Assembly (NCBI RefSeq): GCF_016097555.1
Contig: NC_054711.1
Coordinates: 34,803,395 to 34,867,394, forward strand
Direction: 5' to 3'
DNA from: Gigantopelta aegis
Lineage: Eukaryota; Mollusca; Gastropoda; Neomphalida; Peltospiridae
Length of the DNA: 64,000 nucleotides
Shown here: piece by piece, positions 7,158 through 61,084 of the stretch
Position numbering within the stretch: position 1 is the first letter of the stretch
Layout: the number at the start of each line of letters is the position of its first letter
The notes under the pieces: model-generated
Seen by the model: only the letters and a program-made list of their open reading frames with translations
Databases searched by the model: none
What the model was told of the DNA's origin: nothing
Program-made: the position numbers and the translations under genes

Positions 7158-7270
7158 GCTTTGAATACATATTGTGAGTAAATATGCTTTGAATACATAC
7201 TATGAGTAAATATGCTTTGAATACATACTGTGAGTAAATATGCTTTGAATACATACTGTGAGTAAATATT
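7158..7270 (-). repeat. 28-bp tandem array seeded on the donor of transporter exon 6
   Basis: Four 28-bp units read on the plus strand as catactgtgagtaaatatgc plus tttgaata. On the coding strand each unit is the last ~14 bases of exon 6 (ATATTTACTCACA) followed by the donor GTATGT and intron bases. The copy adjoining the exon at 7257 is the functional one; the others lie downstream in the intron and repeat the whole exon-intron junction. The unit length is not a multiple of three. Confidence 0.85.
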
Positions 7271-7417
7271 TTGGACTTTCGGGCATTAAAACGAAAGCAG
7301 CTGCAGAAGTAAGACTTGGAATGGTGCACAGAGCAACGAATATCCTCCAACTGTTGTAGATGAAATCTGGATGAAAATATCCTAGAGTTTTGTGTGGTAT
7401 AACGATCCATGCCAGAC
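7257..7417 (-). CDS. SV2-like transporter exon 6 (helices 5-6, PESP signature)
   Basis: The acceptor is tttattttcag|GTCTGG at 7418 and the donor ACA|GTATGT at 7256. It encodes GLAWIVIPHKT, then WRIFVALCTIPSLTSAAAF and VLMPESPKYLLT, closely following the SV2 'AWAIIP...SWRVFVLVCALP...MPESPRFLL' series. The exon is sandwiched between two tandem arrays that copy its two boundaries. Its 161 bases keep phase with exons 5 and 7. Confidence 0.92.
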
Positions 7418-7795
7418 CTGAAAATAAATATAAATATCCTAGAGTCTTGTGTGGTATAACGATCCATGCCAGATCTTAAAATAAATATAAATATCCTAGA
7501 GTTTTGTGTGGTATAAGATCCATGCCAGACCTGAAAATAAATATAAATATCCTAGAGTTTTGTGTGGTATAAGATCCATGCCAGACCTGAAAATAAATAT
7601 AAATATCCTAGAGTTTTGTGTGGTATAACAATCCATGCCAGACCTGAAAATAAATATAAATATCCTAGAGTTTTGTGTGGTATAACAATCCATGCCAGAC
7701 CTGAAAATAAATATAAATATCCTAGAGTTTTGTGTGGTGTAACAATCCATGCCAAACCTAAAAATATATATAAATTTCCTAAAATTTTGGGTGGT
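7376..7795 (-). repeat. 57-bp tandem array seeded on the acceptor of transporter exon 6
   Basis: About seven units of 56-57 bp. On the coding strand each unit holds the pyrimidine-rich end of the intron, the acceptor tttattttcag and the first ~40 bases of exon 6. The 57-bp units are multiples of three and stay open in the exon's own frame, so each would add GLAWIVIPHKTLGYLYLFS; the 56-bp variants break that frame. The copy joined to the rest of exon 6 is the one ending at 7418. The apparent ORFs of about 110 codons here are products of the repeat. Confidence 0.85.
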
Positions 7796-7814
7796 ATAGC
7801 AAGCAATCTGAGAG

Positions 7815-8220
7815 TACTGCTCAAGCAATACATGTCCCCTACATGGGCCAACAAATTATCGTATCCCCAAAGTTCAATGACCATAAAATCGGTAAATTGC
7901 CATGAAAGTCAAACTTGATCTATAAAAGTACAGAATAAAGCTATCCAAAAAATTTCATCTCATTATATTGAGGCATTGAAAAGCAAAAATTAAAAAAACC
8001 CAGTTTTTATATATGTCCTACTTACGTTCAAGGGCCATAACCATGGGTAGATCGCCATGAAAGTAAACTTGATATGTAACAGTATATGATAAGGCTATAC
8101 ACAAATTTTCAGCTCACTATTTTGAGGTATTGCCAAAAAAAAACCTGTCTGACAAAATATATGTGGGACAGACAAACAAACAGACAAACAGGACAGAGAC
8201 AAAACCGGAAGGGGACTAAC
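7815..8220 (+). repeat. Dispersed repeat family E copy
   Basis: It begins near 'gcaatacatgtcccctacat', includes 'ccatgaaagtcaaacttgat', and ends at 'aaaccggaaggggactaac'. It is the fullest plus-strand copy in the window. No ORF. Confidence 0.65.
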
Positions 8221-8350
8221 AAGCTAAAACTAAAACTTAACAAAATAATTATTAAAATTTGCTATATGTTGTTTAATGAACTATATGTATGCTAAACCTG
8301 AAAATAAACAAAAATTCACCACCCTTAGATCCATCCCTGAATAAATACTA

Positions 8351-10087
8351 CTGTAAAATCATTTATTTTCGAGGGGTGTAATTTTCGCGCTAAAAGAAAT
8401 TAGCCATGTTCGCGGAATTAATATTTCGCGCATCCCTGATTAAACACAAAAATTAAAAAAATTAACAAAATTAACAAAATTAGTATGAGTGTTTATACAG
8501 TGAACAATTAAGACGATCCAAAAACAATCGTTTGATCGTGTAGGCTTTCTACCAGATCAAACGATTAGGGTTTCACAGGTAAAGGGCCTCTTTAAGATTA
8601 AATAAATGGCTGCTTGTGTTTAGTCGTTATATATAGAAGCGTAGATCGTTTGTAAATCACTACCATCCAAAATGTCTTTACTCTCGTGATTAAAAAATTC
8701 ACCCCAACCTAAAATGCCCGGCTTGCCAAATCCACGTGAATGGTTTTGGCGGCAGCAGATGGAATTCTATGGAAAAGACACAAATCCATGTTAAAAGAAT
8801 TCGGAGGTGACGTAGAGTTAACTGTTCCTTGGGCTAGATCGTTGCTGCGTCGGATGGGGTTTCTTAAACGTAAAGGGACAAAAGAAGTGAATAAACTCCC
8901 TTGTGATTTCGAGGAGATTAAGAAGGTGTTTCTTAAATGTGTGCCTGATGCCGTGAGTAAAGATTCTATTCCTGACAAGTTGATAATCAACTGGGACCAG
9001 ACTGGAGTTTCACTCATTCCCGGGGGCGATTGGACAATGGAACAACGAGGTGCAAAACAGGTGACGATATCGGGCATCGACGACAAACGTCAAATTACGG
9101 CTTTGCTAGCAATCACTAAGAGTGGAGAGATGTTACCACCACAGGTAATCTATGCGGGGAAAACAGACCGGTGCCATCCAAATATAAACTTTCCTGACGA
9201 TTGGGACATTACTCACACAGAAACACATTGGAGTAACGAATTGAGCATGCTCCAGTTTATTGAGAACGTCATTGACCCGTATGTGACCTCGACAGGAAAA
9301 GAACTTGGCCTGCCACGTGATCAAAAAGCCTTGTGTCTTTTTGACGTTTACAAAGCTCACAGAATGGAGAAAATACGCGAACTGTTAACAAACAAAAAAC
9401 ATTTCGATTGTGTACATTCCTGCTTGTTGTACGGATCAGCTTCAGCCATTGGATTTAACCGTCAACAGAATTTTCAAAGATGAATTGAAACGGTGCTTTC
9501 ATGTGTGGTACGCAAGTGAAGTTGGAAAAAAATTGGATGAAAATGAGGAAGAGTCTGAAAATGAGGACAGTGTTAAAAGTGTGAATGTTGACATAAAAAC
9601 CAGCATTGTTAAACCAATTCATGCACAGTGGCTAAATGAAGTGTGTGAGATTGTGTCAAAGAAAAAGAATCTGATCATGAATGGTTTTCGCAAAGCCAGC
9701 ATTCTTGTTGATTGACATAAAGTGACTAACAATAGATGGGCAAGTTTCACCAACTTCATTCTTACGTAAGAACTTTAAATACCTACTAGTAAGCAGTGTT
9801 TAATTCCTTTTCCCACGTATGTTGTTCCTCAATCACTGTATTACATGCATTGTTTGTTTTGTAATAAATTAATTGAAAATGATTTTGTTTTATTTTGTTA
9901 CACACCATATATATCTGGGTCCATATCTGTGTTCTTTTGAACGTTTGGGAATTGTACGTTTCTATAATCAGGTCCTCTAGTAACAATTTGGTGATCAAAT
10001 TAGAATAGATTAATGTTTCACTGAGTTGTAAATTTCACGCTAAATGTCGCGAAAATTAAGTACCCGCAAAAATAAATTATTTTACAG
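8351..10087 (+). mobile_element. pogo/Tigger-type DNA transposon with both ends intact
   Basis: Both ends are visible. The left end starts CTGTAAAATCATTTATTTTC and the right end finishes AAATAAATTATTTTACAG; subterminal 'aattttcgcg' occurs in both arms. TA dinucleotides flank it (8349-8350 and 10088-10089), the target duplication of the Tc1/mariner-pogo superfamily. It spans 1737 bp inside intron 5 of the transporter, in the opposite orientation, and carries a broken DDE_1 transposase. A 411-bp element at 52955-53365 has a similar CTGTA end and is a possible non-autonomous relative. Confidence 0.85.
8740..9715 (+). pseudogene. DDE_1 (pogo/Tigger) transposase, frameshifted
   Basis: Two overlapping frames, 8740-9483 and 9410-9715, together cover a DDE_1 catalytic domain. 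Seen: WARSLLRRMGFLKRKGTKEV; IINWDQTGVS (first Asp); LCLFDVYKAHR (second Asp); and, in the second frame, VYIPACCTDQLQPLDLTVN (third Asp region). The switch between frames near 9405-9412 looks like a small deletion of about two bases. The N-terminal helix-turn-helix expected before WARSLLRRM was not found, and the 8740 start is not a convincing initiator. It is an inactive copy, but its catalytic blocks are well preserved. Confidence 0.85.
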
Positions 10088-10354
10088 TATTATTATACCT
10101 TTAGTGCTTGTATGCAATTAAGGTTCAATCGCATTGTCAGGCATGGGTGCTATCTGGGCCGTCTGTTCAGGACAGTAGGTTAACAGTTATTTGTTATTTG
10201 TTAGTAAGAGAGAAATCAGTTAATAACATGTTTTTATATGAGTTTAAGTATTAGACAGTACATTGCATGTAGCTATATGCCATTTTGCTGCAAACAGACT
10301 ATAAATAAAATGTAATGAACATCTTTAAATTAAAAGGGAGGTAACTCTACCTAC

Positions 10355-10476
10355 CTGCTGCCATGATGTTGCCACCCATCCAGAATGTCGCCAGCACACT
10401 AATCATTGTTCCGCGTCTGTCTTTTGGTTGAAATTCAACAAAATAAGAAAATATCACAGGTATACTTCCACCAACC
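10355..10476 (-). CDS. SV2-like transporter exon 5 (helix 4)
   Basis: The acceptor is ttatttttccag|GG and the donor CAG|GTAGGT. It encodes VGGSIPVIFSYFVEF, then QPKDRRGTMISVLATFWMGG and NIMAA, matching the SV2 block 'GIGGSIPIVFSYFSEFLAQEKRG...FWMIGG'. One base enters from exon 4 and one base leaves to exon 6; both split codons give glycine. Confidence 0.93.
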
Positions 10477-11083
10477 CTGGAAAAATAACATAAATATTCC
10501 ATTATTAGTCGTCATTTCACCTGCTATTTCACCTGTAGGAACGGGGGGAGAGGGGGCTTTGTCCCCCCACCCCCACTACTTAAGGATGAAAATATGTGTT
10601 TTTGGTCCAAGTTTGTATAAATAAATGTAAAATTATGGCTCCCTCCCCCTCCCCCCCCCCCCCCCCCACTACAGAGGCTGTGACCCCGCACTAGCGGTTG
10701 TGCACTTTCATTTCAGGTATCGTTGCTATGGGCCTGGCTAAACAAGTTACATGTAATATTAAAAATATATGACAAATATTTCTTTTAACCACACTAAAAA
10801 AGTAAGGTATCATTTGTAATCAAATCTGGTTAAAATAATATGACATTAACAAAGAATTACCCAAAAATCTATTGGCCCTGAGTTAATTTTGCTTAGTATA
10901 TTTTAAATGTTTAACTAGTATATTCTCAATAGGAGGCACCAGCTAAATAAATGCTGATGTCAATCAATTTTACTTCACTTTTACATCAGTAAATTGCTGA
11001 CAGAAAAGAAAAGGAATATTTATTTAAAGGCAGGTGACTTGAAAACAATTTTAAACATGGGCGGCTATTTGGTGTCTAGGGGA

Positions 11084-11362
11084 GGGATTTAGCTCTATAG
11101 CTTGCCTGAGGAGCTTGTATCGCAGGATCAAACCACCTCAGTGGATCCATTTAGCTGATTGTTTTTTTTTTCATTCCAACCAGTGCACCACAACTAATCA
11201 AAGGCTGTGGTACGGAATGTGTTTTCCTGTCTATGGGAAAATGTGCATAAAAGATCCCTTGCTGCATCAGAAAAAAAAGAGTAGTGGGTTTCCTTTTAAT
11301 TACCATATGTTTAACATCCAGTAGCCGATGATTAATAATTCAATGTGGTTTAGTTAAACAAA
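11084..11362 (+). repeat. SINE with head C
   Basis: The head has a tRNA-like box A (tttagctctatagcttgcct, degenerate) and 'aggatcaaaccacctcagtg'. The shared body and a tail-1 ending (ttcaatgtggtttagttaaa) follow. Confidence 0.7.
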
Positions 11363-11697
11363 AAACCCCTAAACATTTGCTGTCTAACAACTGTATGACA
11401 GAAACAGAGAGAAGAAACCTGCCACATGCACTTCAAATAGATAGGACAATACATATCAAAGGCTCTAATGTGTGAGGATGAGCACATGCCTGATACATGG
11501 TCGGATTAGGATCGATCCCCAGCGGTAGACCTGTTGTGCTATTTCTCATTCCAGCCAGTGTGCCATGACTATATACCAAAGGCTACCCTGTCTGTGGCAT
11601 AGTGCATACAACAAATATTTCCCTTGCTACTAATGAATAAATGTAGCAGATTTCCTCTCTAAGAGTATATTTCAAAATTATCTAATGTTTGACAATG

Positions 11698-11965
11698 CAG
11701 GGGCGGGATGTAGTCCAGTGGTAAAGCTTGATGTGTGGTCGGCTATTTCTCGTTACAGCCAGTGCACCACGACTGGTATATCAAAGGCCTATCCTGTCTG
11801 TGGGATGGTGCATATAAAAGATCCCTTGCTACTAATGGAAAAATATAGCGGGTTTCCTCTCTAAGACTATATGTAAAAAAATTACCAAATGTTTGACATC
11901 CAATAGCCGATGATCAATAAATCAATGTGCTCTAGTGGTGTCCTTAAAGAAAACAAACTTTAACC
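11698..11965 (+). repeat. SINE with head A and tail 1, near full length
   Basis: The head is 'ggggcgggatgtagtccagt', with part of box B deleted. The body has 'cagtgcaccacgactggtat' and 'cataaaagatcccttgctac'. Tail 1 ends 'ctctagtggtgtccttaaag'. The truncated fragments beside it suggest repeated insertion here. Confidence 0.8.
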
Positions 11966-12446
11966 AATAACTGATGATAAACAAATCAGTGTTCTCTAGT
12001 TGTGTCGTTAAACAACAAAACCCAAACTTTAAACTTAACCCTCTGAAAAGCAGCAAGGAATCGTTTATATGCACTTCAAACAGACAAGACAGCACATATC
12101 ACAGCTTTTGATGTCATGGGGCAGTGATAAGGATGATTAAAACCCCAGTAAAAAGAGGGTTATCAATCCTGTGACCCATCAAACGTCAGGTGTGTTATTT
12201 ATCACTGAGTTATATCCCAAGCCAGAAGTTTCTGAATTAGGCCCCAAACACACCAGGGGTGCAGAAAGTACTCACCCACTCACCAAATGCAAGTAAAAAC
12301 TCTCACGGATGAGCTAAAAAATGCAACTACCAGTCCGACTGGGGATCTGTCTTTTTCTGACTGATGATATACATGTATATATATTTTTAATTTTCCATCA
12401 AATTTGATGTGAAGACGGTGTATATTATATTATTATCCTGATCAGT

Positions 12447-12600
12447 ATCCAGACCCAGACCCCCAGACCCCAGACCCAGATCCAGACCCCCACCCAGACC
12501 CAAACCCCCAGACCCCCACCCAGACCCAGACCCCCAGACCCAGACCCAGACCCCCAGACCATGACCAGGATCCAGACCCAGACCCACACCCACACCCAGC
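12447..12600. repeat. CAGACC-type minisatellite
   Basis: Irregular tandem run of cagaccc and cagacccc units, with one 'ccatgaccaggat' interruption near 12560. It lies in transporter intron 4. Open frames through it encode only Gly/Trp/Val repeats and are not genes. Confidence 0.85.
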
Positions 12601-13050
12601 TGTGGTGTGCTTTCAGGGTTTTATCAATTATGTTTCTAGACTCAGACTCCCCACCATTCTCCAAAGGCTATGTTATTTTTTATTCCCAATCTGAATGTAA
12701 ATAATTCCCATTTTTTCATTATTATAATAATGTAATATACATTGTAAATATATATTTTGAAAGTGATACTTAACACTTTACAAACACCCCTTCCCTCCCC
12801 TATAACATTTCATAATGCAAAATAGATACATTAATTTGAATAAATTCAAGTACATGTAGAGTATTACTCTTCTAAATTTTAATTTAGTTTAATAAGATGT
12901 TTCCAAAATAAAAATAAAATTTCCCAATTTATAAAACGATGCTAAAATTCCCAGTCAAAGCCATAGGCATCAAGTAAAATTTGAGAGAAAAAGCCCCCTG
13001 ATTTTTTGGCCATATGATGACATGAATTAAAAGGGTTGAAGGTCACTGAC

Positions 13051-13213
13051 CCGATTCCGCTGATGAACCTCATGAGTAAGAAGAACCAGAAGACTTGAGC
13101 TGTGCTGGACACGAGGCCTCCCACCCCGTTCAGCAGCAGGGACCACATCAGTGTTGACCTTCGACCTGTCCGATCAGCCAGGGAGCCCCACAGATAGCCT
13201 CCAACCAACATAC
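13051..13213 (-). CDS. SV2-like transporter exon 4 (helices 2-3, MFS motif A)
   Basis: The acceptor is tttctttaag|GTATG and the donor GG|GTCAGT at 13050. It encodes GMLVGGYLWGSLADRTGRR, then a helix and MRFISGIG, matching 'GMMVGAFLWGGLADRLGRR...CRLLSGVG' of SV2. The acceptor is AAG rather than the CAG seen in most of the tandem copies just upstream. That makes this a relatively weak site facing about 53 near-identical competitors. The 163 bases keep phase on both sides. Confidence 0.93.
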
Positions 13214-15608
13214 CTTAAAGAAAACACATTATACAGCCCCACAGATAGCCTCCAACCAACATAACTAAAAAAAATGCATTATAGAGCCCCACAGATAGCC
13301 TCCAACCAACATAGCTGAAACAAAACACATTATAGAGCCCCAGAAATAGCCTCCAACCAACATGCCTGAAACAAAACACATTATAGAGCCCCAGAGATAG
13401 CCTCCAACCAACATACCTGAAACAAAACACATTATAGAGCCCCACAGATAGCCTCCAACCAACATGCCTGAAACAAAACACATTATAGAGCCCCAGAGAT
13501 AGCCTCCAACCAACATACCTGAAACAAAATGTATTACAGAGCCCTACAGATAACCTCCAACATACCTGAAACAAAACATGTGCAATATACAGCCCCACAG
13601 ATAGCCTCCAACCAAAATACCTCAAACAAAATGTATTAATATATAGCCCACAGATAGTCTCCAACCAACATACCTGAAAGAAAACACATTATACAGCCCC
13701 ACAGATAGCCTCCAACCAACATAACTTTAATTTTTTTATTACAGAGCCCCAGAGATAGCCTCCAACCAACATAGCTGAAACAAAATACATTATAGAGCCC
13801 CAGAAATAGCCTCCAACCAACATGCCTGAAACAAAAAACATTACAGAGCCCCAGAGATAGCCTCCAACCAACATACCTGAAACAAAACACATTATAGAGC
13901 CCCAGAAATAGCCTCCAACCAACATGCCTGAAACAAAAAACATTACAGAGCCCCAGAGATAGCCTCCAACCAACATACCTGAAACAAAACACATTATAAA
14001 GCCCCAGAAATAGCCTCCAACCAACATGCCTGAAACAAAACACATTATAGAGCCCCAGAGATAGCCTCCAACCAACATACCTGAAAGAAAATGTATTACA
14101 GAGCCCTACAGATAACCTCCAACATACCTGAAACAAAACATGTGCAATATACAGCCCCACAGATAGCCTCCAACCAAAATACCTCAAACAAAATGTATTA
14201 ATATATAGCCCACAGATAGTCTCCAACCAACATACCTGAAACAAAACAGATTACAGAGCCCTAGAGATAGCCTGCAACCAACATACCTGAAACAAAACAT
14301 ATTATAGATCCTTAGAGATAGCCTCCAACCAACGTATCTGAAACAAAACACATTATAGATCCTTAGAGATAGCCTCCAACCAACATACCTGAAACAAAAC
14401 ACATTATAGATCCTTAGAGATAGCCTCCAACCAACATACCTGAAACAAAACATATTATAGATCCTTAGAGATAGCCTCCAACCAACATACCTGAAACAAA
14501 ACACATTATAGATCCTTAGAGATAGCCTCCAACCAACATACCTGAAAGAAAACACATTATAGAGCTCCAGAAATAGCCTCCAACCAACATACCTGAAAGA
14601 AAACACATTATAGATCCTTAGAGATAGCCTCCAACCAACATACCTGAAACAAAACACATTATAGATCCTTAGAGATAGCCTCCAATCAACATACCTGAAA
14701 CAAAACACATTATAGATCCTTAGAGATAGCCTCCAACCAACATACCTAAAAGAAAACACATTATAGAGCTCCAGAAATAGCCTCCAACAAACATACCTGA
14801 AAGAAAACACATTATAGATCCTTAGAGATAGCCTGCAACCAACATACCTGAAACAAAACACATTATATATTCTTAGAGATAGCCTCCAACCAACATACCT
14901 GAAAGAAAACACATTATAGATCCTTAGAGATAGCCTCCAACCAACATACCTGAAAGAAAACACATTATAGAGCTCCAGAAATAGCCTCCAACCAACATAC
15001 CTGAAAGAAAACACATTATAGATCCTTAGAGATAGCCTCCAACCAACATACCTGAAACAAAACATATTATAGATCCTTAGAGATAGCCTCCAACCAACAT
15101 ACCTGAAACAAAACACATTATAGATCCTTAGAGATAGCCTCCAACCAACATACCTGAAAGAAAACACATTATAGAGCTCCAGAAATAGCCTCCAACCAAC
15201 ATACCTGAAAGAAAACACATTATAGATCCTTAGAGATAGCCTGCAACCAACATACCTGAAACAAAACATATTATATATTCTTAGAGATAGCGTCCAACCA
15301 ACATACCTGAAACAAAACACATTATAGATCCTTAGAGATAGCCTCCAACCAACATACCTGAAACAAAACACATTATAGATCCTTAGAGATAGCCTCCAAC
15401 CAACATACCTGAAAGAAAACACATTATAGAGCTCCAGAAATAGCCTCCAACCAACATACCTGAAAGAAAACACATTATAGATCCTTAGAGATAGCCTCCA
15501 ACCAACATACCTGAAAGAAAACACATTATAGATCCTTAGAGATAGCCTCCAACCAAAATATCTGAAAGAAAACACATTATAGAGCTCCAGAGATAGCCTC
15601 CAACCAAC
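13183..15608 (-). repeat. 51-bp tandem array seeded on the acceptor of transporter exon 4 (proximal block)
   Basis: About 47 units of 51 bp continue directly from the exon 4 acceptor. On the coding strand each unit is CAG|GTATGTTGGTTGGAGG, more of the first ~34 exon bases, then ~17 bases of intron end (TAATGTGTTTTGTTTCAG type). Proximal units stay open in the exon frame (MLVGGYLWGSIMCFVSG). Distal units read CTCTAAGG, an in-frame stop. A block of roughly 0.5 kb is duplicated (13215-13679 and 13680-14235). In the distal part a 'gctccagaaatagcc' variant recurs about every 204 bp, a four-unit higher-order repeat. Confidence 0.92.
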
Positions 15609-16161
15609 CAATCTGATTAAAATTAGCTCTACTGGTCTACTACCAGTAGATCTAACAGCATTGCATGGGCTCCCATGTCCAGGTGACATTTTATCTATAA
15701 ATAACAATTTAAATATCGACCAATTACACTTCGCCTTTCATAACGTTATTCGGGAGTATACAAATTCTAAAAATATAGGTTGAGCCTATTTATGCAATAG
15801 GCAAACTTGTTGGTCTATTTCAACATTGAAAAAACAGAGGGGAAAGTGCAGTAATAAACTCTGGATTGTATACTAGTATAAACAGATTTTATGGCTATAC
15901 CATCACAGGTTTTTTCCGTCTTGAAACGAATTTTATATAAAAATTTATATTGAAATTAGTTTCCGGCATACTTCGTAATTCACCCGAATCATTTCGTATA
16001 CCCTCAGCATAATCTTGAATGTTTTGAAAAAAAATTCAAATCACTGGCATGATTTTGCAAGTAAGGTTTTGATTGGTCGAATGAAAGGTCAACTGGACAT
16101 GAGTTCCAACGGGCTGCTGTTAGATCCACATGTAATAGTGGAGCTCATTTTAATTAGATTG
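15609..16161. mobile_element. MITE inserted into the exon 4 acceptor array, 9-bp target duplication
   Basis: The 553-bp element starts CAATCTGATTAAAATTAGCT and ends AGCTCATTTTAATTAGATTG, near-perfect terminal inverted repeats. It is flanked on both sides by ccaaccaac (15600-15608 and 16162-16170), which is array sequence. A 9-bp target duplication suggests a Mutator-like (MULE) source (inference). Related copies are at 62909-63543 and 63958-64000. It has no transposase. Confidence 0.85.
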
Positions 16162-16503
16162 CCAACCAACATACCTGAAACAAAACATATTATAGATCCT
16201 TAGAGATAGACTCCAACCAACATACCTGAAACAAAACACATTATAGATCCTTAGAGATAGCCTCCAACCAACATACCTGAAACAAAACACATTATAGATC
16301 CTTAGAGATAGCCTCCAACCAACATACCTGAAACAAAACACATTATAGAGCTCCAGAGATAGCCTCTAACCAACATATCTGAAAGAAAACACATTATAGA
16401 TCCCTGGAGATAGCCTCCAACCAACATATCTGAAAGAAAACACATTATAGAGCTCCAGAGATAGCCTCCAACCAACATACCTGAAACAAAACACATTATA
16501 GAT
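16162..16503 (-). repeat. 51-bp tandem array, distal block beyond the MITE
   Basis: About 6.7 more units of the exon 4 acceptor array continue after the MITE. The last unit at about 16490 runs into unique intron sequence. Variants 'gctccagagatagcc' and 'atccttagagatagcc' both occur. Confidence 0.9.
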
Positions 16504-16918
16504 CCCCAAGTTTCAAAACTACACGTACCTGATCAAATATCTAGAATATAGACTTACATTTTTAATATTAAATTAAATTAAACAAATTCCAAAATATCTC
16601 TCCATTAGTTTGTGAAGACTGTTCCTAAGAATACTTATTCTAAGTTTCATAACTATTCAATCAAAACTCTAGGAGAAGATAGATGTTTTATCAAATTTCT
16701 ATTTATAATGTTTACATTTAATAAAAATTCAAAATGTTCACAGTACAGGTATCTATTAGTTTGTGAAGACTGCCCAGAGTACAAAGCTTCAGAACTATCC
16801 AATCAAAATGAATGGAACGATGGATGGACAGACAGATGGATGCTGGACAAATTGGTATTAGAAAAGAAGGAAATTAGATTTTAAAAGAGGACAAAACCAT
16901 TTTTACACTTCTTCTTAC

Positions 16919-17080
16919 CCACAAACACAATGGCACTAAGCCATCCTTTATCCGCTGAATTCATGTGCAGATCACACGATGCCGACGGTAACAGGAATGA
17001 AACGGATAAAACCTCCACAGCATCACTGGACACGGCCCAGCCACACAGAAGCAAGATGTAGATGTGATATTTTCCATACC
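16919..17080 (-). CDS. SV2-like transporter exon 3 (helix 1)
   Basis: The acceptor is cttgttgtttcag|GGTATGG and the donor G|GTAAGA at 16918. It encodes YGKYHIYILLLCGWAVSSDA, then VEVLSVSFLLPSASCDL and SADKGWLSAIVFVG. The order matches SV2 helix 1 and the loop before helix 2 ('ADGVEVFVVGFVLPSAETDL...GWLGSIVYLG'). The 162 bases enter and leave in the same phase. Confidence 0.93.
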
Positions 17081-17287
17081 CTGAAACAACAAGCAGAACA
17101 CTGCAATAAAAACAAGAATACCTGAAACAACAAGCAGAACACTTCAATAAAAACAAGAATACCTGAAACAACAAGCAGAACACTTCAATAAAAACAAGAA
17201 TACCTGAAACAACAAGCAGAACACTTCAGTAAAAACAAGAATACCTGAAACAACAAGCAGAACACTGCAATAAAAACAAGAGTACCG
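17081..17287 (-). repeat. 41-bp tandem array seeded on the acceptor of transporter exon 3
   Basis: About five 41-bp units, plus-strand acctgaaacaacaagcagaa then cacttcaataaaaacaagaat. On the coding strand each ends TGCTTGTTGTTTCAG|GT, the acceptor of exon 3 with only a few exon-like bases. The array ends where family D repeat sequence begins (gtgaggtacatgatacgccc). Confidence 0.8.
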
Positions 17288-33169: not shown

Positions 33170-33285
33170 ACACTGACAAAGCATTTCTCCAGTACACGTG
33201 GATCAGTCCAGATGTAGCTGACCTCTACCACACAGAGGTACCCCCTGTTTTTAGGGGGAAGGGAGTCGCAAAACTCTTAGCAAAG
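33170..33285 (+). CDS. NATD1: NATD1-like N-acetyltransferase exon 2 (acetyl-CoA loop)
   Basis: The acceptor is tgtgttatttcag|AC and the donor AAAG|GTAGGA at 33286. It encodes TDKAFLQYTWISPDVADLYH and TEVPPVFRGKGVAKLLAK. HTEVP followed by RGKGVAKLLA is diagnostic for the NATD1/GNAT motif A loop. It ends in phase 0. The exon's last ~25 bases and donor are repeated in the intron that follows. Confidence 0.9.
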
Positions 33286-33470
33286 GTAGGAAGTTTAAAC
33301 TAATGGGAGTCTCAAAACTCTTACCATAAGTAGGAAATAAAGTTCAAACTAAAGGGAGTTGTAAAACTCTTAAGCAAAAGTGGAAAATAAAGTTCAAATT
33401 AAAGTGAGTGGTAAAAACTCTCAACAAAGATGGGAATTAAACTAATGGAAGTTGGAAATTTCTTCTAAAG
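33262..33470 (+). repeat. Degenerate tandem array seeded on the donor of NATD1 exon 2
   Basis: After the exon end 'gtcgcaaaactcttagcaaag|gtaggaag', four diverged copies of the same junction follow at about 33307, 33355, 33408 and 33445 (for example 'gttgtaaaactcttaagcaa'). Unit length is about 45-55 bp. One better preserved copy lies farther off at 34433-34480 (agcaaaactcttagcaaagg). Confidence 0.75.
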
Positions 33471-35290: not shown

Positions 35291-35490
35291 NNNNNNNNNN
35301 NNNNNNNNNNNNNNNNNNNNNNNNNNNNNNNNNNNNNNNNNNNNNNNNNNNNNNNNNNNNNNNNNNNNNNNNNNNNNNNNNNNNNNNNNNNNNNNNNNNN
35401 NNNNNNNNNNNNNNNNNNNNNNNNNNNNNNNNNNNNNNNNNNNNNNNNNNNNNNNNNNNNNNNNNNNNNNNNNNNNNNNNNNNNNNNNNN
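35291..35490. other. Assembly gap, 200 N
   Basis: Exactly 200 N, the same as the second gap, so probably a placeholder of unknown true length. It abuts a 57-60-bp satellite on its right. The missing NATD1 3' exon(s) and MPND 5' exons may lie within it. Confidence 0.95.
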
Positions 35491-36390
35491 TTTAAAACGT
35501 TCCTTCTTTCCGTAACCATATGTTCAGTGCCATATACATGTAACTAATTAAAAACATTCCTTCTTTCCGTAACCATATGTTCAGTGCCATATACATGTAA
35601 CTAATTAAAAACATTCCTTCTTTCCTTAACCATATGTTCAGTGCCATATACATGTAACTAATTAAAAACATTCCTTCTTTCCTTAACCATATGTTCAGTG
35701 CCATATACATGTAACTAATTAAAAACGTTCCTTCTTTCCGTAACCATATGTTCAGTGCCATATACATGTAACTGTAATTTAAAACATTCCTTCTTTCCGT
35801 AACCATATGTTCAGTGCCATATACATGTAACTGTAATTAAAAACATCCTTCTTTCCGTAACCATATGTTCAGTGCCATATACATGTAACTGTAATTTAAA
35901 ACGTTCCTTCTTTCCGTAACCATATGTTCAGTGCCATATACATGTAACTGTAATTAAAAACATTCCTTCTTTCCGTAACCATATGTTCAGTGCCATATAC
36001 ATGTAACTAATTAAAAACATTCCTTCTTTCCGTAACCATATGTTCAGTGCCATATACATGTAACTGTAATTTAAAACGTTCCTTCTTTCCGTAACCATAT
36101 GTTCAGTGCCATATACATGTAACTGTAAAGTGTAATTTAAAACATTCCTTCTTTCCTTAACCATATGTTCAGTGCCATATACATGTAACTGTAATTTAAA
36201 ACATTCCTTCTTTCCTTAACCATATGTTCAGTGCCATATACATGTAACTAATTAAAAACATTCCTTCTTTCCGTAACCATATGTTCAGTGCCATATACAT
36301 GTAACTGTAATTTAAAACGTTCCTTCTTTCCGTAACCATATGTTCAGTGCCATATACATGTAACTGTAATTAAAAACATTCCTTCTTTCC
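35491..36390. repeat. 57-60-bp satellite derived from SINE tail 2
   Basis: About 15 copies of a unit with 'ttccttctttccgtaaccat', 'atgttcagtgccatatacat' and 'gtaactgtaattaaaaaca'. Its core 'taaccatatgt...gccata...taactgtaaat..aaa' matches the tail-2 segment of the SINE at 34711-35042. Minus-strand open frames (SYMYMALNIWLRKEGMF repeated) are artefacts. Confidence 0.9.
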
Positions 36391-42457: not shown

Positions 42458-42550
42458 AAAAAGATGACAGATTTTTACAGAGATGCACCAGACAGGGTTA
42501 TTTTCCTTGAGAAATGGATCAACAATAAACCATTCATAGAGAAATTAAAG
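42458..42550 (+). CDS. MPND: MPND-like exon with repeated 3' junction
   Basis: The acceptor is tttttctttcag|AAA and the donor AAAG|GTAAAT. It is 31 codons: KKMTDFYRDAPDRVIFLEKW and INNKPFIEKLK, matching 'EMMLLVEFYKGSPDLVRFQEPW..EHTYLDKLK' of MPND. The last ~27 bases and the donor are repeated about 21 times immediately downstream. Confidence 0.9.
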
Positions 42551-43395
42551 GTAAATGAATTAACAGTAAGCCATTCAGAGAGAAATTAAAGGTAGATGGA
42601 TTGACAGTAAGCCATTCAGAGAAATTAAAGGTAGATGGATTGACAGTAAGCCATTCAGAGAAATTAAAGGTAGATGGATTGACAGTAAGCCATTCATAGA
42701 GAAATTAAAGGTAGATGGATTGACAGTAAGCCATTCATAGAGAAATTAAAGGTAAGTGAATTGACAGTAAGCCATTCATAGAGAAATTAAAGGTAAGTGA
42801 ATTGACAGTAAGCCATTCATAGAGAAATTAAAGGTAGATGGATTGACAGTAAGCCATTCAGAGAAATTAAAGGTAAGTGAATTGACAGTAAGCCATTCAT
42901 AGAGAAATTAAAGGTAAGTGAATTGACAGTAAGCCATTCATAGAGAAATTAAAGGTAGATGGATTGACAGTAAGCCATTCATAGAGAAATTAAAGGTAGA
43001 TGGATTGACAGTAAGCCATTCATAGAGAAATTAAAGGTATATGGATTGACAGTAAGCCATTCATAGAGAAATTAAAGGTAGATGGATTGACAGTAAGCCA
43101 TTCATAGAGAAATTAAAGGTAAGTGAATTGACAGTAAGCCGTTCATAGAGAAATTAAAGGTATATGGATTGACAGTAAGCCATTCATAGAGAAATTAAAG
43201 GTATATGGATTGACAGTAAGCCATTCATAGAGAAATTAAAGGTAGATGGATTGACAGTAAGCCATTCATAGAGAAATTAAAGGTAAGTGAATTGACAGTA
43301 AGCCATTCATAGAGAAATTAAAGGTATATGGATTGACAGTAAGCCATTCATAGAGAAATTAAAGGTATATGGATTGACAATAAATAATTTCTTTC
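42524..43395 (+). repeat. 41-bp tandem array seeded on the donor of an MPND exon
   Basis: About 21 units of 39-41 bp: gtaagccattcatagagaaa, ttaaag|gtagatgga and ttgaca. Each unit copies the exon end (ccattcatagagaaattaaag) plus a donor in one of three forms, gtaagt, gtagat or gtatat, and also ends in 'ttgacag' before 'taagcc'. The first unit is the real exon end at 42550. Confidence 0.92.
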
Positions 43396-51075: not shown

Positions 51076-51076
<1 letters not shown>

Positions 51077-51078
<2 letters not shown>

Positions 51079-52952: not shown

Positions 52953-52954
52953 TA

Positions 52955-53365: not shown

Positions 53366-53367
53366 TA

Positions 53368-54640
53368 TCTAAAATTGAAGAAGTATTTCAATTAAATTAA
53401 AAAAAGAAAACATTAAATAAAAAACCCCACCTTATCCAGTGCATTGTGATGCACAGTTGCAACTATAAACCAAGTTTTATTGATGAGTTTAATCCAACCC
53501 ACACAAGTAATCAATTAAATTGGTAGAAAACAATCTATAGTCCGTCCTATCCTCCTACAATAATGTTTTTTGTAAATAATTTCAGTTTGATTTGTCGTAA
53601 GAAGAAAAATAATAGTTTTGGAAAAAAACTGAAAAATTATAAATTTTGTGTGCAGTTTAGAAAACAATGGTCTCAAAAATAAACAACTTGTAGTAAATTC
53701 CATAGCATAATGAAAAAAGTTTCCTTTGGGAAGGACTATAGCTGTTGATTCATGTCTGGTTGACTATATTTTTGATTTGTGTAATGTATTATTAGACTAT
53801 ACAATGTCCAGTGACACAATACCTTAGGCATCAGAAGGGGATGGGGGAGAGGGGACTGGCCGGGCCAGCTGAAATCAAATTTAATTACTTACAGCTGGCT
53901 CTGCACCACCCCCACCCACACCCCCACCCCCCACCCCCCCACCCGCGTAAGTTGTTGTCTTCTTCCCAGGCCTATAAATACAAATTTATACATGTTGTTA
54001 ATGTCCTAGTTTGTACTATTTCTACTTTGCAATATTTTTCCCTATCATGGTTTTATGCATAATCTTGCAATAAACTGATATCCTCTACCATTTTTAGAAG
54101 TATTTTTGGGGTTTTTTCACACATTTTGTGTGGGCTAGCCATTCATCAATGTGGTGTGTCTTGTGTGCATGTGTGTTTTAGTGTGTGTTATTCACAGGGA
54201 CACAGGTTCAAATCCATGGAGAAGTCTGACTCGTACTTTTTCGGGGGGGATATGCTCACTAAAATTGGTTGACACTAAGACTTCATGTACAGCATTCTGT
54301 TGTCCCCCCCCCCCCCCCCCCCAGTAGTGGGCATCATTTATTATGACATAGACTTTTATTTTACCCATTTAATCTTACTATAGTAATAAAGACAACTCTG
54401 ACTGCAATAAAAAAATATTTTATTAAACGTGTGATACAAAACCTTGCATGTGTAGTATGTGTTCACCCAAATGACATCACGTTTATAGCCAGGAATGATG
54501 TCGTGTTCCTAGACACTCAGTGCTCCATCAATTCTATAAAATTCAACCAACTTTCCAGATGAAGTAAGCTGTGGTATTTAATTAAACTTGTGTTAATCAT
54601 AATATAGAAAGGTGATATGTAATAAATACAGAACCACATA
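53368..54640. other. Unassigned, C-rich runs
   Basis: It holds a cacccccacc stretch at 53904-53943 and a C-run at 54304-54322. It has a piece (53545-53760) resembling 3700-3870 near transporter exon 8 (cgtaagaa, ataaacaacttgtagtaaat, ggaaggactatagctg), so a dispersed repeat of about 200 bp. Confidence 0.5.
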
Positions 54641-55090
54641 CCAGTTGTTATGCCATGTTATTTATTGCACTTGTTTATAGTGTGCAAGATTTATACCACT
54701 TGACCATCTCATGATATAATATTCTTATGCACTATAAACTCTTTAAAAGCCTTTTATTTTTTATATGTAAATGTATATGTAGCATATATAGAAACGATGT
54801 TAACACATTGTTTTGAGTATTGCTTTAACTTTGTATTTTAATCACATTCTTATATAATTTTAAAAAAATGTTTTATTTATTCTGTTAAAACTATATAATG
54901 AAGAGCCATAAATGCATACACTTCAAACTATGTGACATCGTTTTGTATATTTGCCATCGTCATCTTTAGTACCAACATGGACAAATTGTCCAAAACTATT
55001 GTTCGTTATACCAATACAGAATATTTCTCACTGAGAAAATATGAAAAATATTTTCCCAGTTATGAGTGACCACTGGGGTAATAAATGTAT
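54641..55090. repeat. Diverged copy of the palindromic MITE family
   Basis: It contains 'tttctcactgagaaaatatg', 'ttttcccagttatgag' and 'cactggggtaataaat', related to 5690-5800 and 44880-44965. Boundaries are approximate. Confidence 0.5.
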
Positions 55091-55510
55091 ACTTACTGTA
55101 TTACTCTTTTAAAATCAAACTTAGCTTAATTATATTTTTTATGAAATAACACAAAAAAAATTCCCTAATTGTTTTTACCACGGGCATCAAGTCAAATTTT
55201 GGAAATAAGACTCTGAGCATATTGTAGATTTTCATTGCTATACTTCTGGAGATAGGTACAGGTCAGTTGCATCTTTACATTCTTGGATGAAAAAAAATCA
55301 AATGCTGCCTGAAAAAAAAGTATGTATATTAAAAAAAAGGGAAAATAAAGACATTAACATAAATAACAGACAAGAAGGTTTGTTTTACCACACCCCAACA
55401 CATAGAAAACTAATATGTTAATGTGACGTGATCAAGCAATGAAAAAAAAGAGGTTTTTTGTTCATATGTCGGGAATGGAAACGAATACTTTAGTGTTCAA
55501 ATCTGTTAAT

Positions 55511-55725
55511 CATTTGTCACATCATTAACAGCTATGGTGGGACATATCACTCGAGGGCAGCATCATTTGTCACATCATTAACAGCTATGGTGGGACATAT
55601 CACTCGAGGGCAGCATCATTTGTCACATCATTAACAGCTATGGTGGGACATATCATTCGAGGGCAGCATCTTTTGTCACATCATTAACAGCTATGGTGAG
55701 ACATATCACTCGAGGGCAGCATCAA
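55511..55725. repeat. 53-bp tandem repeat, four copies
   Basis: Unit: tttgtcacatcattaacagc, tatggtgggacatatcactc, gagggcagcatca. Four copies with few differences, so young. Confidence 0.95.
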
Positions 55726-55805
55726 ATGAAGCACATTTCTATTGTACTCCATATTCACTAACAAAGGCAATCTTCCTCCTAGGTAAGCAATTAACATAAT
55801 TATTA

Positions 55806-56925
55806 AACTGACGATTAAAAGAAAGTATACCAATTATTTTTATTATAAATAAACACAATAGACATTCATGGAAGGTTAGATATGTTTCCAGTATTGTTAG
55901 TTATAATGCAATCAATGACGAATAGTCGCACATTGCTGCGTTTGGGCGATGCCGCACGTGCAAAATGAGTTTATTCATCAAATTTATACTGCATGAGAAA
56001 CATGATACTCGTGCGCATAAGGGTGTAAAAAAGGGTGCCATTGCTTAGAACATGTCTCAGTCAACAGTAAAACACCAGAGAACATGGCAAGGCTAACTGC
56101 TGAAGAAAGAGAGAGAGCTATTGGTTGCAGTTGGGTGCGAGTTATGCCCATGTGGCAAGAATCCTGAATTGCACAAAACTGACGATCACCAGGTTGATAC
56201 AGCGTTACAGGGTGACTGGCAGGACTGCAAACAGACCATGAAGTGGAAGACCTCGTGTCACAACAGCCAACGAGGACCGCCATCTCCACATCTTACACTT
56301 ACATAACAGATTCCTCACTATGACGTCATCTGCAGTGACTGGCCTTGGACATGTCATCAGTCGTCACACTGTACGTCGTCGACTACAACAGCATGGTATC
56401 GGGGCCTATCGACCATTCAGAGGGATGATATTGACGAGGCAACATCGACTTCGATGTTTACGTTGGGCATGTCAGTTTCAACGTTGGCAACATTGGAACT
56501 GGCAACGTGTACTCTTTTCTGATGAGAGCAGGTTCCAGTTATTCAGAGCTGATGGCAGGACTCGGATATACCGACGTGCAGGAGAGAGAACAGCTCCGTG
56601 CTGAGTTCAGGAGACTGAACCGTTTGGTGGTGGATCTGTGATGGTTTGGGGCGGTATCTGTGGCCAAGAGCGGACAGACCTTATTGTCATTGATGGAAAT
56701 CTGTCTGACGTCGGGTCCATGCTTGCATACTTGCACATGGTGGACATACACGCTATTGAAACATGTTCTTTGTGGTCAAATTTATTCACCTTCGTTATGA
56801 GTGGTCCTTTTATATATAGCCAAATTATTATACTTTCAAAATATAACATTTGCATCAACTTGTGTTTTGTGTTGTTTTTAATACTTTGAAAAAATAATTG
56901 GTATACTTTCTTTTGATCGTCAGTT
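55806..56925 (+). mobile_element. Tc1/mariner-type transposon, internally deleted
   Basis: The terminal inverted repeats are AACTGACGATTAAAAGAAAG on the left and CTTTCTTTTGATCGTCAGTT on the right, extending about 38 bp; TA flanks at 55804-55805 and 56926-56927. At 1120 bp it is short for a complete Tc1-like element because the 3' part of the transposase is missing. Confidence 0.88.
56084..56760 (+). pseudogene. Tc1/IS630-type transposase remnant
   Basis: It starts MARLTAEERERAIG at 56084, then is frameshifted and stopped through the helix-turn-helix region. An intact block at 56320-56604 reads HTVRRRLQQHGIGAYRPFRG and VLFSDESRFQLF, where FSDESRF carries a catalytic Asp. 'GGGSVMVWGGICG' and LIVIDGNL follow after another break. 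The third catalytic region (DNA..H and WP..SPDLNPIE) is absent. Not functional. Confidence 0.88.
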
Positions 56926-56927
56926 TA

Positions 56928-57127
56928 CATTTTCCACACTAAAAACAAATAAATTTGTTATATTCGTGTCAAACACAAACCCCTGTAAATATGAAAATGT
57001 CCACAGAAAGAAACATGCTCCGAATTTTTTTTTTAATATATAGTCCACATCACAATAAGTCCTCTGGAGAATTAAAAACTACGGCATTACCGATTTCTGT
57101 GGGCAATTGCAGGAGTTGAAACTCTTG
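56928..57127. other. Unassigned sequence before gap
   Basis: AT-rich; a short frame reads NAVVFNSPEDLL on the minus strand but has no support. Confidence 0.4.
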
Positions 57128-57327
57128 NNNNNNNNNNNNNNNNNNNNNNNNNNNNNNNNNNNNNNNNNNNNNNNNNNNNNNNNNNNNNNNNNNNNNNNNN
57201 NNNNNNNNNNNNNNNNNNNNNNNNNNNNNNNNNNNNNNNNNNNNNNNNNNNNNNNNNNNNNNNNNNNNNNNNNNNNNNNNNNNNNNNNNNNNNNNNNNNN
57301 NNNNNNNNNNNNNNNNNNNNNNNNNNN
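57128..57327. other. Assembly gap, 200 N
   Basis: Same size as the first gap and again against a tandem array, so the true length is unknown and missing array copies are likely. Confidence 0.95.
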
Positions 57328-58322
57328 GTTTCATTCAGTAGGTTGGGTTTAGCCTAGTGGGTGGGTTTGAAATCAGTGAGTGGGGTTTGGTTTGTAGGTG
57401 GGGTTTAGTTTTATAAGTGTGGTTTCATTCAGTAGGTTGGGTTTAGCCTAGTGGGTGGGTTTGAAATCAGTGAGTGGGGTTTGGTTTGTAGGTGGGGTTT
57501 AGTTTTATAAGTGTGGTTTCATTCAGTAGGTTGGGTTTAGCCTAGTGGGTGGGTTTGAAATCAGTGAGTGGGGTTTGGCTGAATGGGTGGGGTTTAGTTT
57601 TATAAGTGTGGTTTCATTCAGTAGGTTGGGTTTAGCCTAGTGGGTGGGTTTGAAATCAGTGAGTGGGGTTTGGCTGAATGGGTGGGGTTTAGTTTTATAA
57701 GTGTGGTTTCATTCAGTAGGTTGGGTTTAGCCTAGTGGGTGGGTTTGAAATCAGTGAGTGGGGTTTGGCTGAATGGGTGGGGTTTAGTTTTATAAGTGTG
57801 GTTTCATTCAGTAGGTTGGGTTTAGCCTAGTGGGTGGGTTTGAAATCAGTGAGTGGGGTTTGGTTTGTAGGTGGGGTTTAGTTTTATAAGTGTGGTTTCA
57901 TTCAGTAGGTTGGGTTTAGCCTAGTGGGTGGGTTTGAAATCAGTGAGTGGGGTTTGGCTGAATGGGTGGGGTTTAGTTTTATAAGTGTGGTTTCATTCAG
58001 TAGGTTGGGTTTAGCCTAGTGGGTGGGTTTGAAATCAGTGAGTGGGGTTTGGTTTGTAGGTGGGGTTTAGTTTTATAAGTGTGGTTTCATTCAGTAGGTT
58101 GGGTTTAGCCTAGTGGGTGGGTTTGAAATCAGTGAGTGGGGTTTGGTTTGTAGGTGGGGTTTAGTTTTATAAGTGTGGTTTCATTCAGTAGGTTGGGTTT
58201 AGCCTAGTGGGTGGGTTTGAAATCAGTGAGTGGGGTTTGGTTTGTAGGTGGGGTTTAGTTTTATAAGTGTGGTTTCATTCAGTAGGTTGGGTTTAGCCTA
58301 GTGGGTGGGTTTGAAATCAGTG
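57328..58322. repeat. 94-bp G/T-rich tandem array
   Basis: About 10.5 copies of a unit with 'gtttcattcagtaggttggg', 'tttagcctagtgggtgggtt' and 'gagtggggtttgg', in two versions (ggtttgtaggtgggg and ggctgaatgggtgggg). The strand asymmetry (G and T on plus) is marked. Confidence 0.95.
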
Positions 58323-59367
58323 GTATTAAAAATTTTGGTTGTGATTTAATCTGCTGTGTAAGATTTTGATGAGTGATTGAGATACATGTCAGGGTTTCTA
58401 GATTATGATCGCCCCAATCCCATGGCTAGTGATATTCAGTGTTGGGCTAGTAAATAACTGCTAGTAAAAAATAAAATGCTGCATTTATGTCTGTTTTGTA
58501 AACATGACTTTCCTGCCCCATCCACCTACCCAAATCAAAGGGTTTTTAAACTCTATGTCCCTCTTTGGGTGACATACCTGTATCTGATTGTATTTATTAA
58601 AGTAGGGTTAGTGAATTTATAATCATGACCTGTAAATGTTTTAAATCACTGGTGAATGTTTATAACATTCTGGAAGCCCTGCATGTATATATGAGATTAA
58701 TCTACATGTATGTGTATATGTGTGAGGGATTCAACTAAAGCACACAGCATAATGTGTTATTATACTAAACATGCATAAACACCATTAAGGTGTCCGAGGT
58801 TTATTTCTCTTTGTTTACACTTAAGGTACTTTTGAAATTCCTCCAAGACACTTGGGACATTAATATATGGTAAACACTGTCACTGGGGTTATCTTAAGGA
58901 ACCCAGATCAGTAATGGTCTGCTAGTATTGGTCAGGTGTGTGTGATGTTTTCAGAGGGACTGGGGTGAAAGATAGTTCATTGAGAGACTGAGAGAGAGAG
59001 AATATCTGGCAAGAGAGAAAGACATTTAGGGCCAACTCTCCATATCATATACATTGTTTATATGCTATCATCATGGATTAAAGAATATAACTGAGATCGA
59101 ACTTGTGTAGTTTTTGTGTGAGGGTGCTTTATGCACTCAGCCACATATGTAAGAAATAAAAATTTTGCTGCTATTGTATCATATTTCTGACTAATTGAGC
59201 CTTTTCAGCAATTACAGCTGCATATTAAATACATTTTCAGGTTTAGAATATTAGTCTTTCTATATTCAGTGTGTTTCTGTCATCGTAACATTTGTGGTAC
59301 ATTGTAGCTTAAACTGATTCTATTCTCAATAAATGTATGACATTAGGATAAGAAAAACATTGGATAT
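58323..59367. other. Unassigned intergenic or ARMC8 intron
   Basis: No exon was recognised. A segment near 58395-58680 (cccatggctagtgatattca, actagtaaataactgct) is shared with 26650-26990 and 35085-35215, so it is another dispersed repeat. ARMC8 upstream exons were looked for and not seen. Confidence 0.45.
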
Positions 59368-59541
59368 ACAGACACTAATATTCTAAATATGAAATGTATG
59401 ATTAATATACAATGTTAATGGTTAGAATAAAGCCTTGTTAGTCAAAAGCATGTTAACATTTTTTTTACTAACAAAGCTTTATTTTAACCATTAACATTGT
59501 ATAATAATCATGCATTTCGTATTTAGAATATTAGTGTCTGT
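59368..59541. repeat. Long hairpin 43 bases before an ARMC8 acceptor
   Basis: Arms of about 75 bp: 'acagacactaatattctaaa'...'tgttaatggttagaataaag' on the left and the mirrored 'attttaaccattaacattgt'...'agaatattagtgtctgt' on the right, with a ~22-base loop. Probably a MITE. Confidence 0.85.
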
Positions 59542-59584
59542 AAAGTGAGGTGTCTCTTAAACAAAGATTCCTCTTCTACTGTAG

Positions 59585-59665
59585 ACAAAAGAACACCAGG
59601 ACATTTTGTGCAGTAATGGTGCTATAGCAGCCTTAGCTCCACTTCTAGCATCCGATGTATACAAG
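59585..59665 (+). CDS. ARMC8: ARMC8 exon A
   Basis: The acceptor is cttctactgtag|ACA and the donor AAG|GTAAAA. It is 27 codons: TKEHQDILCSNGAIAALAPL then LASDVYK, matching '[23 protein letters not shown]..YK' of ARMC8. Phase 0 both ends. At least one exon must precede it. Confidence 0.9.
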
Positions 59666-60299
59666 GTAAAACATTATTTATTTGTTTTATTTAAGATAGA
59701 GCTTTATAACTCCACTTCTAGCTATTTGTTTTATTTAACACAGAACAGTTTGGGTAATACTGAAGCAAAACAATTTACTATTTTCATTAAAAAATGTGAT
59801 CATATTACAGGGCACAATATTTCACAAGAACCTTTGTGCTGTTCACGTGTCGGTTATGTTACTTTAAAATCACGAGAACCGCCAATCGGTTACTTGGTGA
59901 ACAATTACATTCTAGAATTAAAAGTACTATATATCAGTAATGAAAATGAAAGTCAGTTTATGTTTTTGAACCACCAATGTATCGCATAATCGTGTTTTAG
60001 CACAAGAACTATATTCATGTAACCGAACAATCGGTTACCTATTAAGTAAAACTCACGTGAACAGACTTCCGGTTACCTAATATTTAAAAATATTGTCCCC
60101 TGTATTAAGTAACTGATGTACATGTATCACCATTTTGCTATTTGGCTAACTAAAACTTGAATTTGAAACTACAATTATTTTTATAAAATTCATCAAATTT
60201 TATACAATTTGTGACTGTTGTATAAAAATTGATAAATTCCCCAAATCAGAAATGACTCTAATATGAACATGCTGACTGAAATAAAAGATTATTTTGTAG
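59666..60299. other. ARMC8 intron
   Basis: AT-rich intron with an ORF of 127 codons that simply extends exon A past its donor; the extension has no family similarity. Confidence 0.6.
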
Positions 60300-60375
60300 G
60301 TTCAGATGCCGACGCTGAAGTGTTTTGCTGTGCTGTGTTATGAAAATGAGAACAGTGCAGCACAAATATCAACAG
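60300..60375 (+). CDS. ARMC8: ARMC8 exon B
   Basis: The acceptor is ttattttgtag|GTT and the donor ACAG|GTACTT. It encodes VQMPTLKCFAVLCYENENSA then AQIST, matching '[20 protein letters not shown]'. It ends one base into a codon that is completed by CT of exon C (Ala). Confidence 0.9.
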
Positions 60376-60732
60376 GTACTTTACTCTCTGTTTTAAAAGA
60401 AAGGAATGTTTAGCAACATCCCAGCACATTGTGTATCATTGCCTATTTAATAATTATGTTTGAAAGGAAAACAATATTAGCAAGTAGGGCCATTGTGCTA
60501 CTAAACGCAGTCTCAGAGATTACATTTGCCGTAAAATATGTACACCATGAGTTCTTTCCTCTTTAGCTAACGTTTACTACCACAAGTCATTTTACATGGC
60601 TACTTATGATTATTATATTTTAACTCTATACCTGTAAGTAGTCTACAACAGTAAACAACAGTCAATTTGGTATTTTGCAACAGATTTAATAGTTCATTGT
60701 GTATTGAATTATATTTTACACATGCTGTTTCA

Positions 60733-61084
60733 GCTACATAATACAGGTAATATATCATTGTGTATTATAAATCACTGTGTATTACATCACTGAGTATTGA
60801 TACATTACTGATTTGCATACATTCTCTTGCATATGTAGTTGATATTTCAGCTACCTGCAACAGGGAATATATGTTGTGTATTATACCACTGTGTATTCAT
60901 ACTTTACTGATTTACATTTTGCAAATACACACTCTTGTAGTTAATATTTCAGCTACCTACAACTGGGAATATATCATGTATTATACCACTGTGTATTATA
61001 CCATTGTGTATTTATACATTACTGATTTACATTTTTCACGTACACACTCTTGTAGTTAATATTTCAGCTACCTATAACGGGGAG
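60733..61084 (+). repeat. ~105-bp tandem array seeded on the acceptor of ARMC8 exon C
   Basis: Four diverged copies of the junction 'atatttcag|ctacctacaac' lie at about 60730, 60845, 60948 and 61060. Each is followed by a copy of the first exon bases (ctacctgcaacagggaat, ctacctacaactgggaat) and then by 'atatcatgtattataccact'-type spacer. Only the last continues into the coding exon (ctacctataacggggagtcg). Confidence 0.82.

Follow-up and report, generated by a model that had tools for sequence, protein, structure and literature searches.

Tandem arrays spanning exon-intron junctions in genes of the vent gastropod Gigantopelta aegis

Why do several neighboring genes of the vent gastropod Gigantopelta aegis carry tandem arrays whose repeat unit runs across the junction of an exon and an intron, and what do these arrays do to the introns that hold them? 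The window considered here is a stretch of 64,000 nucleotides, C13:34803395-34867394, located by whole-genome DNA search in an assembly of 1.149 Gb. One of its genes encodes a transporter, whose exons, used as the query in a protein search, matched the product P0001, 'synaptic vesicle glycoprotein 2C-like [Gigantopelta aegis]', with 100% identity over an aligned part that makes up 60% of the query. Eleven minus-strand exons in the window match P0001 exactly, and its final exon lies in the flank. The exons of NATD1, MPND, and ARMC8 were placed with human protein probes. A home-made exon finder, which reproduced only 15 of 26 known exons exactly, served as a pointer only. The exons that carry the arrays are the following:

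16919..17080, minus strand, exon 3 of the SV2C-like transporter, exact match to P0001 residues 46-100
13051..13213, minus strand, transporter exon 4, exact match to P0001 residues 100-154
7257..7417, minus strand, transporter exon 6, exact match to P0001 residues 195-248
33170..33285, plus strand, NATD1 exon 2, from tblastn with human NATD1 and the splice signals read
42458..42550, plus strand, MPND exon, the fourth in the window, from tblastn with human MPND and splice signals
61068..61219, plus strand, ARMC8 exon C, from tblastn with human ARMC8 and splice signals

The seven arrays listed in the earlier note were all recovered by TRF and direct reading, close to where it had placed them, and the exon content of each unit was derived from the mapped exon ends together with the TRF limits:

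17080..17286, minus strand, transporter exon 3 acceptor array, 41 bp x 5, abutting the junction
13183..15608, minus strand, transporter exon 4 acceptor array, exon-touching block, 51 bp x 47.5
15609..16161, minus strand, 553-bp element with terminal inverted repeats that splits the exon 4 array in two
16162..16506, minus strand, exon 4 acceptor array, distal block, 51 bp x 6.8
7375..7798, minus strand, transporter exon 6 acceptor array, 57 bp x 7.5
7156..7269, minus strand, transporter exon 6 donor array, 28 bp x 4.1, 13 bp of exon per unit
33259..33428, plus strand, NATD1 exon 2 donor array, about 50 bp x 3.5, degenerate, about 27 bp of exon
42514..43383, plus strand, MPND exon donor array, 41 bp x 21.4, about 37 bp of exon per unit
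60733..61083, plus strand, ARMC8 exon C acceptor array, unit of about 105-115 bp, about 16 bp of exon

Three of these arrays lie at donors and four at acceptors, and in six of the seven the unit combines adjoining intron with 13 bp of exon or more. The unit at the transporter exon 3 acceptor contains a polypyrimidine tract and AG with at most about 5 bp of exon-like sequence, so the claim that all seven span a junction holds for six, and the exon 3 array, which merely abuts its junction, was dropped from that class. The exon 6 acceptor unit consists of about 41-43 bp of exon and about 16 bp of intron, and at ARMC8 exon C, TRF reported 60875-61083 (115 bp x 1.8), with degenerate copies from about 60733. 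The 51-bp unit of the exon 4 array, made of about 20 bp of intron and about 31 bp of exon, was confirmed and is present in 51-53 copies (two scans) with visible higher-order blocks; the array, previously described as one run over 13183-16503, is broken by the 553-bp element. In the arrays that were read, the surplus copies sit on the intron side. A relationship to reading frame, suggested by the units of 51 and 57 bp as multiples of 3, was dropped, as units of 28, 41, 80, 98, and 131 bp are not.

The terminal inverted repeats of the 553-bp element are imperfect, and an apparent 8-bp duplication, TTGGTTGG, lies on its flanks. A 91% copy of it runs from 63958 past the window end, and fragments are found at 62909-63543.

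The window arrays are real. It is hardly credible to us that the junctions are single-copy in the animal and that long-read errors or misassembly produced the arrays, even though the window has two 200-bp gaps, each beside an array, and one apparently misoriented contig. The copies are not identical and are grouped into higher-order blocks, a terminal-inverted-repeat element has inserted into one array, and arrays of this kind are present on C5, C8, and C13. Higher-order blocks and an inserted element are as in a real, ageing minisatellite. Moreover, one of the two published G. aegis assemblies, which may not be the one analyzed here, is described in passages of its report as PacBio plus Hi-C (PMC7895826).

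The N gaps lie at 35291-35490 and 57128-57327, and the 21.6-kb segment between them (35491-57127) is apparently misoriented. NATD1 exon 2 is on the plus strand at 33.2 kb and a matching last exon on the minus strand at 55.2 kb, while MPND exons a-d are on the plus strand at 37.1-42.6 kb and its upstream exons on the minus strand at 189.7-204.4 kb of the flank (flank coordinates are window coordinates plus 100000); flipping the segment would make both genes collinear. Both gaps directly adjoin tandem arrays (window 35494-36390 and 57328-58322), and contigs seem to break in arrays, so that array lengths beside the gaps may be too short.

Which copy is the real junction can be told best in the transporter. 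P0001 is built from the exon-touching copies at exons 3, 4, and 6, and no insertion appears at its residues 46, 100, 195, and 248 when it is aligned with the SV2-like proteins of Haliotis, Patella, Lottia, Nucella, and Littorina, five further gastropods. The alignment shows a conserved predicted transporter product that comes from the exon-touching junctions; occasional use of a decoy would still be compatible with it. At NATD1, MPND, and ARMC8, the exon-touching copy was identified as the authentic junction from the human probes only. With P0001 and its five orthologues for one gene and these probes for the other three, the earlier claims that arrays occur in four genes and that the copy touching the exon is the real one are borne out.

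The remaining copies are decoys, and most of them look intact. In an ungapped scan of 14 arrays (the seven window arrays, three flanking ARMC8 arrays, and four elsewhere), 101 of 103 decoys retain AG or GT, a share that is an upper estimate because the scan passes over degenerate copies, and 79 of the 103 score at least as high as the real site. The scoring matrices rest on 23 acceptors and 22 donors taken from these genes, including sites that bear arrays. Outside these 103, the single decoy of a dynein array (L079, below) reads ATACAT against the real donor GTACGT and has lost its GT. At exon 4, the real acceptor TTTAAG scores 10.5, below the decoy median of 14.0; AG|GTATGT is present in 37 of 53 copies and AG|GT in 39 of 53, and the GTATGT at the real site has a donor score of 10.4, compared with 6.6 for the gene's own exon 6 donor. 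The AG is constant across all 53 scanned copies, which is a weak sign of selection, since 8 of the 51 columns are invariant anyway.

One could read these figures as a sign of function, with the arrays acting as splicing regulators, possibly including recursive splicing in transporter intron 3, where AG|GTATGT is a 3' site directly followed by a 5' site, so that a decoy, once used, could be removed by a further round of splicing. Both the donor strength of the motif carried by most copies and a real acceptor weaker than the median decoy would suit such a role. However, among the arrays read, strong AG|GTATGT occurs in one only, and array homogenization accounts for conserved motifs; we therefore regard a function of the decoys as very improbable. 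The spliceosome would have to pass some 50 good acceptors upstream of the real one, and exon definition is one possible way in which it may do so.

Other genes of this genome, on scaffolds C5, C8, and C13, have arrays of the same build. Exon-spanning arrays beyond the window were found in ARMC8, in two myosin genes, and at three dynein places, so the arrays are not limited to the window:

ARMC8 exon e acceptor array, right flank, 80 bp x 2, exon-spanning
ARMC8 exon i acceptor array, right flank, 131 bp x 3.8, exon-spanning
myosin donor array (L032), 80 bp x 5.5, exon-spanning
myosin donor array (L048), 98 bp x 2, exon-spanning
dynein donor array (L070), 64 bp x 2.8, exon-spanning
dynein donor array (L076), 173 bp x 4, exon-spanning
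dynein donor array (L079), 141 bp x 2, exon-spanning

The dynein loci L070 and L079, 16 kb apart, are probably parts of one gene. Further arrays, at ARMC8 exon d and at loci L036, L045, L051, and L053, come to within about 10 bp of a junction and hold little or no exon.

Several other repeats were set aside as junction arrays. Among them are, in L045 and L072, arrays close to acceptors and, in the myosin locus L034 (614-784), a duplicated 82-bp intron piece, which holds a 25-bp stretch between CAG and GTGAG that resembles a duplicated micro-exon. The COPS8 intron before the last exon is taken up by a 23-bp unit repeated over 7.8 kb, the longest array seen (flank 215771-223615, C13 34919165-34927009); this array stops 22 bp before the last-exon acceptor and contains no junction. 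A 51-bp repeat in MPND near flank 201244 was rejected as an in-frame coding repeat inside an exon (SPYASTNQKSPASYRSN-like; C13 34904540-34904670, flank 201146-201276), and C4:118471278-118471394 and 118473129-118473242, 1.85 kb apart, form no array and look like alternative exons: they are diverged versions of one dynein exon, possibly mutually exclusive.

Do junctions attract such duplications, or are they hit by chance? Minisatellites are common around the window: 41 (period of at least 20, score of at least 120) lie in a 264-kb stretch, which amounts to 198 kb once arrays are collapsed and N left out. By the same thresholds the window itself has 17 TRF arrays, 10 of them touching none of the listed junctions; the more distant block at exon 4 counts among these 10. 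Since one array stands for one seed, the chance calculation reduced every array to a single unit, placed it uniformly, and scored a hit where the unit extended 10 bp or more beyond a junction in both directions. With 17 arrays and 38 junctions, the window, which was chosen after the pattern had been seen, has 6 junction arrays against 0.53 expected (P 1.9e-5).

Held-out samples gave 2 against 0.72 expected in the right flank (164-224 kb; P 0.16), 2 against 1.45 in myosin exons (P 0.43), and 1 against 0.24 in dynein stretches (P 0.21). Pooled, 5 of about 191 junctions carry an array, against 2.40 expected from each sample's own arrays (P 0.096) or 1.59 when the non-junction arrays of the 264 kb serve as background (P 0.023); the held-out junctions are mostly match edges, so the underlying counts of 84, 70, and 37 are approximate. 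The myosin sample comprised 40 loci (42 match intervals) taken from 80 matches, mainly by rank, and omitted many matches that lay on small contigs, contained several stops, or fell within long open frames, while the dynein sample comprised 7 of about 16 gene stretches (36 match intervals) picked for exon density; L076 and L079, selected for repeats in the match lists, were excluded from the held-out counts. Rechecking the held-out samples for arrays within 15 bp of the intervals returned the same list and added only the COPS8 array. The earlier note had taken about one junction in five to have seeded an array, and as a general rate this is not supported: the window (6/38) differs from the held-out pool (5/~191; Fisher P 0.0035) and is a local outlier, selected for its looks.

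A cruder test gave no excess. At 5 of 38 junctions the junction 24-mer recurred within 4 kb in two or more additional ungapped copies, compared with at least two nearby copies at 73 of 400 random non-exonic positions; this copy-number-blind test was set aside because it is blind to the single seed per array. The NATD1 junction 24-mer, for one, has a single extra ungapped copy, its array being degenerate and gapped. By eye, repeated exon ends were seen at 1 in 110 and 1 in 51 matches in two match lists and at none of 80 myosin matches, and 80 AAA_8 matches had no clear case, with an ambiguous pair at C8:3447075/3447735.

These counts bear on the proposal that some process linked to splice junctions makes them hotspots of tandem duplication in this lineage, with pausing, R-loops, RNA-templated repair, and short direct repeats at AG|GT as candidates. 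The proposal can point to the window excess, to the ARMC8 stretch, mostly past the window, where 3 of 5 arrays touch junctions against 0.52 expected (P 0.016, by a looser 3-bp criterion), and to the held-out excess over the background of non-junction arrays. The excess measured against each sample's own arrays is weaker, however, and small in flank, myosin, and dynein alike, the match lists have few or no repeated exon ends, and the longest array, that of COPS8, misses its acceptor. We consider such hotspots unlikely, and the shared junction-linked cause suggested in the earlier note is unsupported, because the held-out excess is just 2-3 fold (P 0.02-0.10). A mild junction preference of about this size is possible, not established. 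Rather less likely again is the combined idea that hotspots continually seed intron-enlarging decoy arrays and that a ladder of AG|GTATGT in intron 3 clears about 50 decoys harmlessly.

Our results lead us to favor as the probable explanation that the arrays are ordinary junction-spanning tandem duplications that were tolerated and expanded as 'mirage'-type minisatellites. A local tandem duplication would happen to straddle an exon-intron junction, and whichever copy then expands, an intact junction would be left beside the exon; the duplication would be tolerated because splicing still joins the exon-touching copy. The extra intronic copies may then multiply through slippage or unequal exchange, and they presumably spread on the intron side because copies that reach the mRNA would alter the protein. 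The seeds would have no need to favor junctions. Unit content, orientation, copy numbers, intact decoys, the conserved protein at the real transporter junctions, and recurrence in other genes are the parts of this explanation seen directly, while we infer how the duplications arose, that they are nearly neutral, and that splicing is correct in vivo.

That units hold exon and intron at donors and acceptors alike favors duplication across the junction, and the higher-order blocks at exon 4 fit expansion by slippage or unequal exchange, as does the decayed decoy of L079. Against the same explanation stand the window count, far above the uniform-seed model (6 vs 0.53), and the arrays with little exon that abut junctions, that of transporter exon 3 included, which a uniform model predicts poorly. 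In work by Rogers and later, introns are said to arise when exon sequence that contains AGGT is tandemly duplicated. Tandem duplication with splice signals is common to that model and to our arrays; while the model makes introns, the snail duplications sit at existing intron junctions and enlarge those introns.

The earlier note knew of no description of such arrays; passages of two reports on amphioxus genes, however, name tandem units across exon-intron boundaries 'mirages' (PMC3087553, PMC3902484). As described there, the unit is 10-160 bp, lies at the 5' or the 3' boundary, and occurs in several genes per genome, with an authentic copy at the exon and many decoys with AG/GT; BflGb6 has 3 and 6 copies in two haplotypes (PMC3087553, PMC3902484), and RT-PCR suggested regular splicing (PMC3087553). 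A unit of exon plus intron, an authentic exon-touching copy, AG/GT decoys, and occurrence at both boundaries are common to both animals, and the agreement extends, by these passages, to each testable feature, the snail being known from one haploid assembly and an annotated protein. The differences are that the snail is a mollusc and not a cephalochordate and that its largest array has about 51-53 copies, compared with the 3 and 6 of BflGb6. Human genes in segmental duplications, according to passages of another report, likewise have internal tandem repeats at exon-intron boundaries, which may make or shift introns (PMC2812944). These too are minisatellite units at such boundaries, but they were found through copy-number differences of recent paralogues and change transcripts (PMC2812944), whereas in the snail the conserved protein is unchanged at the transporter junctions.

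A limited literature search met no report of such arrays in a mollusc, and the keyword passages of the Gigantopelta genome literature do not mention them. As far as these searches show, the structure is known from amphioxus; the snail adds its phylum and an unusual number of copies, and takes the range of junction-spanning minisatellites beyond amphioxus to a mollusc. The transporter gene provides a natural test of splice-site choice, in which an acceptor is chosen over about 50 upstream decoys, most of them better on a simple matrix, and the G. aegis genome, with its existing annotation and RNA reads, lends itself to counting how often junctions are duplicated and what this contributes to the growth or gain of introns.
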